A DNA stretch of 64,000 nucleotides from an uncultured Phycisphaerales bacterium (GTDB taxonomy: Bacteria > Planctomycetota > Phycisphaerae > Phycisphaerales > UBA1924), in the NCBI GenBank assembly GCA_903929885.1, contig CAIYWI010000097.1, positions 124,001 to 188,000 of the forward strand. The letters are read 5' to 3'. Both the position numbers and the translations under genes were made by a program. How positions within the stretch are numbered: position 1 is the first letter of the stretch; every line of letters starts with the position of its first letter. Positions 59,717 to 63,801 of this stretch are shown here, piece by piece. The notes under the pieces are model-generated. The model did no database searches. It was given only the letters and a program-made list of their open reading frames with translations, and was not told the DNA's origin.

Positions 59717-61171
<1,455 letters not shown>

Positions 61172-61182
61172 CGCCCACCACC

Positions 61183-61875
61183 ATGCTCGACGGCATCCTC
61201 GTACGACTCGACTCGCCCGACGCCGTCGCCGCCCACGCGGCCGACCTCGTGACGCAAGCGTGCGAGCAGGCCATCAGGGATCGCGGCCGCTTCACCCTCG
61301 CCCTCGCCGGCGGCAGCACCCCCAAACTGCTGTATCGCCTCCTCGCGACACGCAAGCCCGCCCTCGACTGGTCTCGCTGCGTGTTGCTCTTCGGCGACGA
61401 ACGGTGCGTGCCCCACGACCACCCCGACAGCAACATGAAGATGGCGGAAACGACCCTGACGGGGCCCGCGGGCGTGCCTCATTCGTCAATCCTGCCGGTC
61501 CCCACGCACCTGCCCCCCGCGCAAGCCGCGGCGGCCTATGAAGCCACGCTCCGACGCCTGCTGCCCGAGCAGGGACCGGGCATCGACGTGGTGCTGCTGG
61601 GCATGGGCGCTGACGGCCACACGCTCAGTCTCTTCCCCGGCGACGACGCGGCGGTAGCCGAGTCGCAGCGGTGGTGCATTCATACCAAGGCCCCCGCGCC
61701 CTTCGCCGTGCCTGATCGCGTGACGATGACGCTGCCTCTGGTGAACGCCGCACGCCTGCGGCTGTTCATGGTGACGGGCGCGGACAAGTCGCCTCGCCTC
61801 GACGCGATCGTCGCGGGCACGCAAACGCCCCCGGCCGCGATGGTGAGGCAGGCGACGTGGCTCGTGGCGACGTGA
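61183..61875 (+). CDS. pgl: 6-phosphogluconolactonase (DevB type)
   Basis: Pgl hydrolyses the lactone made by Zwf. The 230-aa protein has LALAGGSTPKLLYRLLA, LFGDERCVPHDHPDSN and LLGMGADGHTLSLFPG, the three signature blocks. It is the last gene of the operon, 11 bp after zwf. Downstream is 621 bp without a gene, holding the tandem palindromic repeat. Confidence 0.96.
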   Translation: MLDGILVRLDSPDAVAAHAADLVTQACEQAIRDRGRFTLALAGGSTPKLLYRLLATRKPALDWSRCVLLFGDERCVPHDHPDSNMKMAETTLTGPAGVPHSSILPVPTHLPPAQAAAAYEATLRRLLPEQGPGIDVVLLGMGADGHTLSLFPGDDAAVAESQRWCIHTKAPAPFAVPDRVTMTLPLVNAARLRLFMVTGADKSPRLDAIVAGTQTPPAAMVRQATWLVAT

Positions 61876-61910
61876 CAAGGGTGCCAAGCGAAAGCGAAGG
61901 AGCGAACGGA

Positions 61911-61999
61911 GCCCGGGTGCGCCGCGAGCGAGCCGCAAGCTGCGGACCACAGATCACGCATACTCCCGTCTCTGCGAGTCGAGGCCCCGCGCCAGAGCG
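61911..61999. repeat. Truncated leading copy of the 217-bp repeat
   Basis: It begins with the same left-arm sequence (GCCCGGGTGCGCCGCGAGCG at 61913-61932) as the two longer copies, then departs after about 25 bp and lacks the central palindrome and right arm. Some similarity returns in the spacer part, before copy 1. Confidence 0.6.
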
Positions 62000-62216
62000 T
62001 TGGGCATGTCTTGGATGAACCGACACACATGGGCCAACGCGCACGCTATCGAACTTAGCCCAGGTGCGCCGCGAGCGCAGCGAGCAAGCCCCGGGCCACG
62101 GGACACCATCCGCGCGACCTTGGGCCCCGCGCCCGGGGTTCGCTCGCAGAGCCTCGCAGCACCCCGGGCTACGGTCGCGGCGGATCGCTGATCGCACAAC
62201 CCACACCCGAGAGCCG
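62000..62216. repeat. Tandem repeat copy 1 (217 bp) with a 114-bp imperfect palindrome
   Basis: The core at 62051-62180 recurs at 62268-62397 with one mismatch over 130 bp. Homology continues leftward, more divergent, to about 62000. Within it, a 39-nt left arm (62057-62095) is largely complementary to a right arm (62132-62170), both bounded by AGCCC and CCCCGGG, so RNA or single-stranded DNA should form a long hairpin. Confidence 0.85.
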
Positions 62217-62400
62217 GGCGCATCTTCTTGGAAGAACCGAGACGCGTAGGCCAACACGCACGCCATCGAACTTAGCCCGGGTGCGCCGCGAGCGCAGCGA
62301 GCAAGCCCCGGGCCACGGGACACCATCCGCGCGACCTTGGGCCCCGCGCCCGGGGTTCGCTCGCAGAGCCTCGCAGCACCCCGGGCTACGGTCGCGGCTC
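62217..62400. repeat. Tandem repeat copy 2 of the 217-bp unit
   Basis: It starts exactly 217 bp after copy 1 and carries palindrome arms at 62274-62312 and 62349-62387. It breaks off 97 bp before the metK stop. The near-identity of the cores, against the more diverged flanks, points to recent duplication or gene conversion. Confidence 0.85.
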
Positions 62401-62496
62401 CGGATCGAACGCTCGCTCCACCGGCAAATGACAACCGGGGGCCGTCGCAATCGCGACGACCCCCGGCTTCATTCGGGCACGCCTCTGGCGCCAAAC

Positions 62497-63696
62497 TCAC
62501 TTCGCCGCGGCACGCAGCGCGTCGGCCTTGTCGGTCTTCTCCCAGCTGAAGAACTCGATCTTGGGGCCGCGGTGCTGGCGCTTCACGCGGTCGTAGAACT
62601 GGCCCTCGTAGGGCTTGCGGCCGAAGTGGCCGTGGCGGGCGGTGGGCGAGTAGATGGGGTTGCGAAGGCCCAGCGACTCGATGATCTTGCGGGGCGTCAG
62701 GCCGAAGTGCTCGCGGACGGCCTTCGAGATCTTCGCCTCGTCGACGGTGTTGGTGCCGAAGCAGTCGACCAGCACGCTGGTGGGCTCGGCGACGCCGATG
62801 GCGTAGGAGACCTGGATCTCGCAGCGGTCGGCCAGGCCGGCGGCCACGACGTTCTTGGCGATGTAGCGGGCCATGTACGCCGCGGAGCGATCGACCTTGG
62901 TCGGGTCCTTGCCCGAGAACGCGCCGCCGCCGTGACGGCCCATGCCGCCGTAGGTGTCGACGATGATCTTGCGGCCGGTGAGGCCGGTGTCGCCGTGCGG
63001 GCCGCCGATCTCGAAGCGACCGGTGGGGTTGACGTGCACCTTGATGCCCGCGTTCCACCACTCCTTGAGCACGGGCTTGAGGATGTGCTCGACGACCTCG
63101 CGCTGGAGTTGGTCCTGCTTCTCGTTCCAATGCGGGTCGTGCTGCGTGGAGAGGACGACGGTGTCGACGCGAACGGGCTTGCCGTTGTCGTACTCGACCG
63201 TCACCTGGCTCTTGGCGTCGGGACGAAGGCCGGCGATGCGCCCCTCTCGACGGACGTGGGCCTGCTGCTCGACCAGGCGGTGCGAGAGGTCGATGGGCAG
63301 GGGCATCAGTTCCGGAGTTTCGCGGCAGGCGTAGCCGAACATCATGCCCTGGTCGCCGGCGCCTTCCTTGTCGACGCCCATGGCGATGTCGCCGGACTGC
63401 TTGTTGAGGGCCACGAGCACGCCGCAGGAGTCGGCGTCGAACCGCATGTCGCCGGAGGTGTAGCCGATCTCGCGGACGACCTCGCGGACGATCTCGGGGA
63501 TGTTCGCGTAGGTCGTGGTGGTCACCTCGCCGGCGACGACGACCAGGCCGGTGCAGCAGAGCGTCTCGCAAGCCACGCGGCTGCGGGGGTCATCCGCCAA
63601 CAGGGCGTCGAGCACGGCGTCCGAGATCTGGTCGGAAACCTTGTCGGGGTGGCCCATCGAGACGGACTCGGACGTGAAGAGGCGTGATTCAGGCAT
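62497..63696 (-). CDS. metK: S-adenosylmethionine synthetase
   Basis: MetK makes SAM from methionine and ATP. The 399-aa protein has [45 protein letters not shown] and [16 protein letters not shown], complete for catalysis. The start at 63696 gives the standard [12 protein letters not shown] beginning; the longer frame to 63780 is not conserved. A TATCAT hexamer on the minus strand at 63754-63759 could be its -10. With ahcY and metF nearby, the window covers most of the methyl cycle. Confidence 0.98.
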
Positions 63697-63753
63697 GGCT
63701 GGTGTTTCGCTGCGAGGAAGAGTGACCCTTCGCGTCGTTGCGAAAGGGAACGA

Positions 63754-63759
63754 ATGATA
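63754..63759 (-). promoter_or_regulatory. Candidate -10 TATCAT for metK
   Basis: It is 57 bp before the metK ATG, in the 105-bp spacer after the hpd stop. No good -35 and no SAM-riboswitch-like fold can be recognised in so short a leader. Confidence 0.3.
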
Positions 63760-63801
63760 TCGCGTCAGCCCCGGGGGCACCGCGAACGGCGTGAACGTCG
63801 A

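Follow-up and report, generated by a model that had tools for sequence, protein, structure and literature searches.

What is the tandem repeat that lies between pgl and metK in an uncultured Phycisphaerales bacterium, and what could have placed it there? The window, the whole 64,000-nucleotide stretch of DNA analysed, carries pgl (6-phosphogluconolactonase, 61171..61875, + strand; end at ~61875, start codon provisional; PF01182, E 4e-67) and metK (S-adenosylmethionine synthetase, 62497..63780, - strand; PF00438/PF02772/PF02773) in convergent orientation. The 3′ ends of both genes meet at the repeat array, as a sequence-only reading of the DNA had noted, and this gene adjacency was not found in the relatives searched.

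The two full units, 62050..62181 and 62267..62398, are 132 bp each, are offset by 217 bp and differ by one mismatch in 132, in agreement with the spacing and near-identical core first described. The same reading took the arms of each copy, given as 39 nt, to fold as one palindrome. A stable fold was indeed predicted for the RNA of one unit (-82.4 kcal/mol, versus -63.9 ± 4.1 for shuffled sequences, z -4.6), but the single palindrome resolved into two separate inverted hairpins of 41 nt, with 36 bp between them and the tags outside, TTAG on the left and GTAG on the right. This is the arrangement of a REPIN, or BIME, made of two inverted REPs (an HH dimer). In unit 1, the left REP (62055..62095, + strand, 55.5 bits) has its tag mutated to TTAG, a stem CCCAGG/CCCCGGG and a loop of the type GCGCCGCGAGCGCAGCGAGC; the right REP (62132..62172, - strand, 73.1 bits) has GTAG, an 8-bp stem CCCGGGGT/ACCCCGGG and the loop GCTGCGAGGCTCTGCGAGCGA. 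Unit 2 repeats the pattern, with a TTAG-tagged left REP (62272..62312, + strand, 60.9 bits) and a GTAG-tagged right REP (62349..62389, - strand, 73.1 bits).

The last 41 bp (62226-62266) of the inter-unit spacer (62182..62266) are homologous to the 41 bp upstream of unit 1 (62009-62049), with 7 mismatches (83% identity). As had been proposed, the flank is more diverged than the core (7/41 versus 1/132 mismatches; Fisher p = 1.8e-4 for the 41-bp upstream stretches against the 132-bp cores). The truncated third copy that had been seen upstream was also recovered, as a degenerate left REP at ~61902..61944 (+ strand; by alignment, 20.0 bits, E 0.019). Together, the third-unit remnant and the homologous, diverged flanks indicate an old tandem array built of unit plus spacer, in which the cores resemble one another more closely than the spacers do. 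Homogenisation among the copies of a tandem BIME array would account for a near-identical core beside a more diverged flank, though selection on the core may be the cause instead. A separate hairpin, CCGGGGGCCGTCGC-AATC-GCGACGACCCCCGG (62435-62466), lies just beyond the metK stop; it is probably either the terminator of metK or related to the C52 palindromes described below.

Whether the array is a local peculiarity was judged from the rest of the genome (G000). A covariance model (R1) was built from 15 copies, which match it by construction, while the remaining matches do not. The 3.56-Mb draft held 104 matches at E ≤ 1, and 91 copies at E < 0.01 (R1, fetched stretches) were spread over dozens of contigs. 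The stem covariation score was 0.140, compared with 0.046 for shuffled and at most 0.018 for slid alignments, and the third and fourth stem pairs change jointly on both sides (GC to CG; UA to GC or AU). The model count and the check for compensatory changes that the sequence-only reading had suggested thus returned both further copies and covariation. Most copies carry GTAG, within a GT[AG]G tetranucleotide at the hairpin foot. Among 37 neighbouring REP pairs, inverted pairs with the tags outside (HH) were commonest (20), followed by tandem pairs (9) and inverted pairs with the tags inside (8); REPs also occur singly and in HT and TT orders, with spacers of 26 to 175 bp. Several copies sit at contig ends, for example C20:21-73, C19:54-106, C118:13-65 and C25:87-136. 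The family therefore apparently breaks the assembly, and the copy number is a lower bound.

By crude gene calls based on codon usage, 42 of the 91 copies lie between convergent genes, 14 between co-directional and 2 between divergent genes, 11 inside open reading frames, and 22 at edges where they could not be classified. Convergent gaps thus hold 42/58 (72%) of the classifiable intergenic copies, compared with 8/36 of the gaps in the window. Dispersed copies, a GTAG tag, doublets and gene-end placement are the features by which GTAG REPs and REPINs are defined in two earlier studies (PMC3733652, PMC3116915). The array, as an object, is an ordinary member of a REP/REPIN family, and the REP/BIME-like identity that had been listed among several options is the one borne out by the 91 copies, their compensatory changes, inverted doublets, tag and placement.

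Within the family, the window copies belong to a smaller sub-family with the stem CCCGGGG, whose members are those of the window, C75, C53 and probably C97:237233. Most main-family copies have a conserved mini-hairpin, CGCCCGNNAGGGCG, about 8 nt 5′ of GTAG (e.g. L034 2056-2100). The window copies do not have it, and their left tags are TTAG, such that two of four tags are mutated. A counterpart mini-hairpin, CAGCCCGAAGGGCTG, is found about 8 nt 5′ of GTAG in REPINs of the related genome G009 (L276-L281). In both the G000 main family and the G009 REPINs the mini-hairpin marks the edge of sequence conservation, and no description of such an element for classical REPs was found in the literature compared.

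Evidence bearing on movement came from relatives. In G009, a doublet of ~260 bp is repeated at several scattered sites as well as at the transposase locus, with the outer mini-hairpins conserved and the DNA beyond them unrelated. At one site, L279, apparently between convergent genes, the flanking genes are contiguous in the sister genome G081 with 25 bp between them, versus 365 bp including a REPIN in G009; alignment of this empty site with G009 gave no obvious target duplication. From the alignment, the difference fits insertion of a REPIN unit in G009, but it may instead reflect a loss in G081. The two genes flanking another REPIN, L278, are on different contigs of sister genomes. The REPINs at L278 and between pgl and metK (61875-62497) both sit between genes that are not adjacent in sister genomes, which suggests that REPINs may mark rearrangement breakpoints.

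The sequence-only reading had found no transposase or RAYT nearby. This is correct for the contig of the window but does not extend to the genome, in which there are two Y1_Tnp genes on other contigs, 29% identical to each other, one of them flanked by family members. The latter, on C118, encodes a TnpA of 144 aa (P0001) with three + strand REPs upstream and two inverted (- strand) REPs downstream, all GTAG-tagged. Their loop, GCTGCGAGGCTTTGCGAGC, is that of a C53 copy, and the window right arm differs from it by one base; their stem, CCGTGGGC/GCCCACGG, is unlike the window stem yet still complementary. The second gene (P0002, on C52; Y---Q--HH) was rejected as the mover, since the palindromes around it are of another family and show no clear GTAG. 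It lies within inverted units of ~290 bp with perfect palindromes CCGGGGGTTGCGGCGTTTCGCCGCAACCCCCGG (C52:35178-36566, L039 1679-3067), a separate transposase-linked repeat family.

P0001 passes the NCBIfam IS200/IS605 model NF033573 (71.4 bits, cut-off 55) and fails the RAYT model NF047646 (REP_Tyr_transpos; 19.6 bits, cut-off 80). Its motifs are DHMH, with M at the hydrophobic place, WQ and Y---Q--HH, and the residues D54, H55, H57, W95, Q96, Y115, Q119 and H123 are invariant in the TnpA alignment. The defining feature of RAYTs is an NP(L/V)(R/K)xG motif beside the catalytic Tyr (PMC2817692); NP is absent from P0001 and from 77/77 surveyed relatives (Y---NP, 0/77), all 77 of which have Y---Q--[HR]H. 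The motifs follow the signature of subclass 1.2, DH[IV]H/WQ/YIKNQKEHH, for which the REP column reads ‘no’ (Quentin et al. 2018, PMC6006769). Judged by its sequence, the C118 enzyme is an IS200-like TnpA of subclass 1.2 and not a RAYT. Class 3 TnpA, known from Planctomycetes, was rejected as the enzyme class (motifs W[TA] and YV[VI]xEQ, 178 aa). Many near-identical tnpA copies, as expected of an IS200/IS605 insertion sequence, were not found in G000, which has two divergent ones. In the E. coli enzyme, W94-Q95 belongs to the GTAG-binding region (PMC6006769), and the match of TnpA W95-Q96 to this pair is suggestive only.

The association of this enzyme with tagged hairpins is not confined to C118. 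Perfect GT[AG]G hairpins (stem of at least 8) occur at 16/24 TnpA loci of this genome and its relatives, with 36 hairpins in total versus ~2 per set of shuffled flanks. In a survey of named organisms, 24/80 loci had tagged hairpins within 600 bp, versus 0.85 expected: 13/28 in Planctomycetota, 4/16 in Verrucomicrobiota and 5/14 in Acidobacteriota. In Bacteroidota, loci of this enzyme clade had no GTAG hairpins within 600 bp (0/14), which makes the association less than universal. The REP-type TnpA genes of some relatives contain in-frame stops (L044, L047, L063; G012:C19, G009:C26) and are decaying copies.

Across 101 genomes of the order, a genome was called REP-rich when the pattern GTAGCCNNGGGN{4,34}CCCNNGG exceeded its reversed control by at least 5. 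By this definition 12/23 genomes with this TnpA were REP-rich, versus 0/78 without it (Fisher p 1e-9, kinship ignored), and all 12 REP-rich genomes of the order carry a subclass 1.2 TnpA. Class-2 RAYTs, present in 61/101 genomes, did not predict this REP type (p 0.35, kinship ignored), and G000, G009 and G096, all rich in it, gave no NF047646 match. Flanking REP stems also followed TnpA relatedness (Mantel r 0.60, n 51; 0.80 within the order, n 27; p 2e-4, kinship ignored); for example, CCACGGG stems occur in one TnpA clade and CCGGGGGT in another. As a positive control, class-2 RAYT loci of the order had another stem type, GTAGGGTGGG/CCCACC, at 6/10 loci. The loops of these class-2 REPs (GTAGGGTGGGT...ACCCACC, L246-L255) resemble those of subclass 1.2 REPs, a sequence likeness hinting at a shared origin or at loop exchange between the systems.

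We conclude, with a probability of about 0.8, that the feature is a short tandem REPIN (BIME) array of inverted GTAG-tagged REP pairs, a non-autonomous mobile DNA whose likely mover is a single-strand transposase of the HUH/Y1 type, from the IS200-like subclass 1.2. The nearest candidate is the C118 TnpA, whose gene lies inside an array of REPs that share the loop and have a covarying stem. By analogy with TnpA-REP and IS608, we infer that a C118-type enzyme would cleave and move REPs. The single-stranded REP strand would fold, the enzyme would read the hairpin with its GTAG guide, and cleavage through Tyr115 would be followed by rejoining. Doublets would in this way be transferred between single-stranded sites, often at gene 3′ ends, and the array would grow as REPIN and flank were duplicated in tandem, followed by homogenisation of the core. 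The window stem is unlike that of C118, the left tags are TTAG and the 5′ mini-hairpin is missing, so the enzyme that moved the window copies may no longer be present. These copies may be old and may owe their movement to the C118 enzyme or to a sister enzyme since lost.

Other explanations were weighed against the same data. One is a local tandem duplication retained for an RNA function, as a bidirectional terminator or 3′ stabiliser of the convergent pgl and metK. The convergent site, the very stable fold, the conservation of core over flank and the 72% of classifiable intergenic copies lying between convergent genes would all suit it. Yet about 90 dispersed copies, the GTAG tag, inverted doublets and a transposase gene within an array are traits of mobile REPs, metK has the hairpin of its own at 62435-62466, and the best Rfam scores (28.1 versus 83 bits, to miRNA hairpin models only) were nowhere near the gathering score. 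The last result also fails to bear out the structured RNA that had been offered as an option. We regard the RNA function as an unlikely explanation of the array. An RNA-level role can nevertheless coexist with mobility, and a putative stabilising effect on mRNA 3′ ends would be a side effect.

Alternatively, the copies could be ordinary REPINs whose mover, a classical class-2 RAYT, is absent from the draft, with the subclass 1.2 TnpA merely lying among them. The draft comprises 170 contigs and is 94.6% complete, and such enzymes are common in the order, where they have GTAG REPs of their own with similar loops. This explanation seems quite unlikely, given that three REP-rich genomes gave no match to the RAYT model, that the REP type is predicted by the TnpA and not by class-2 RAYTs, that the REPs flanking class-2 genes have a different stem, and that REP stems follow the subclass 1.2 proteins. 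The MITE that had also been put forward, here the derivative of a DDE transposon with terminal inverted repeats, would explain inverted arms around a short spacer. It would not explain why each arm is itself a hairpin, why REPs occur singly and in HT and TT orders at such variable spacing, or why the associated enzyme is a Y1 transposase; together with an empty-site alignment lacking an obvious target duplication, this makes a MITE highly improbable.

Few bacterial repeats are as common as REPINs, for which class-2 RAYTs have been regarded as the dedicated enzyme. The wider point of this analysis is that a second class of transposase is associated with GTAG REPs, a link not made in the literature compared and one that, as regards mobilisation, we infer. 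A literature search, mostly of papers outside subscription, found no earlier report tying subclass 1.2 to REPs. It seems probable that REP and REPIN mobilisation is not confined to class-2 RAYTs, and that an IS200-like (class 1, subclass 1.2) Y1 lineage of Planctomycetota, Verrucomicrobiota and Acidobacteriota constitutes a second REP transposase system. This lineage would possess distinct types of GTAG REP and would co-evolve with its hairpins, and in one order would exist alongside class-2 RAYTs whose REPs share similar loops but not the stem. The REP association would then have arisen twice or be ancestral to both classes. If so, the two classes form a natural experiment for identifying the enzyme features that recognise the GTAG tag; subclass 1.2 has the WQ pair common to several REP-associated subclasses and no NP motif. 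A function would also be provided for a transposase subclass described without known ends.

Much of the system resembles REPs, BIMEs and REPINs with class-2 RAYTs in E. coli, Pseudomonas and Stenotrophomonas (PMC2817692, PMC3116915, PMC3733652): GTAG at the hairpin foot, inverted doublets and heterodimers, tandem arrays with flanking DNA, gene-end placement, a Y1 gene between inverted REPs, and co-variation of REP and enzyme. Unlike those systems, the enzyme here is of subclass 1.2 (Y---Q--HH, no NP(L/V)(R/K)xG), and the main family has the extra small hairpin 8 nt 5′ of GTAG. PMC3733652 reports GTAG REPs in the PVC superphylum, including Rhodopirellula baltica, with multiple Y1 genes and flanking repeats; its main text does not name Phycisphaera or give an enzyme class or REP-enzyme co-variation for this clade. 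The TnpA agrees with subclass 1.2 (PMC6006769) in length (144-150 aa, ~148), in DHxH, WQ and Y---Q--HH, in low copy number and in that IS200-type ends are not described. That study gave a range of Cyanobacteria and Bacteroidetes and no REPs, whereas here GTAG REPs flank members from Planctomycetota, Verrucomicrobiota and Acidobacteriota, and none from Bacteroidota. The Y---Q motif is shared with IS200/IS605 elements (IS608, ISDra2), and the closest solved structures by sequence are 2a6m and 2xm3. In contrast to those elements, tnpA copies are few, and many dispersed REPs occur in doublets without tnpA.
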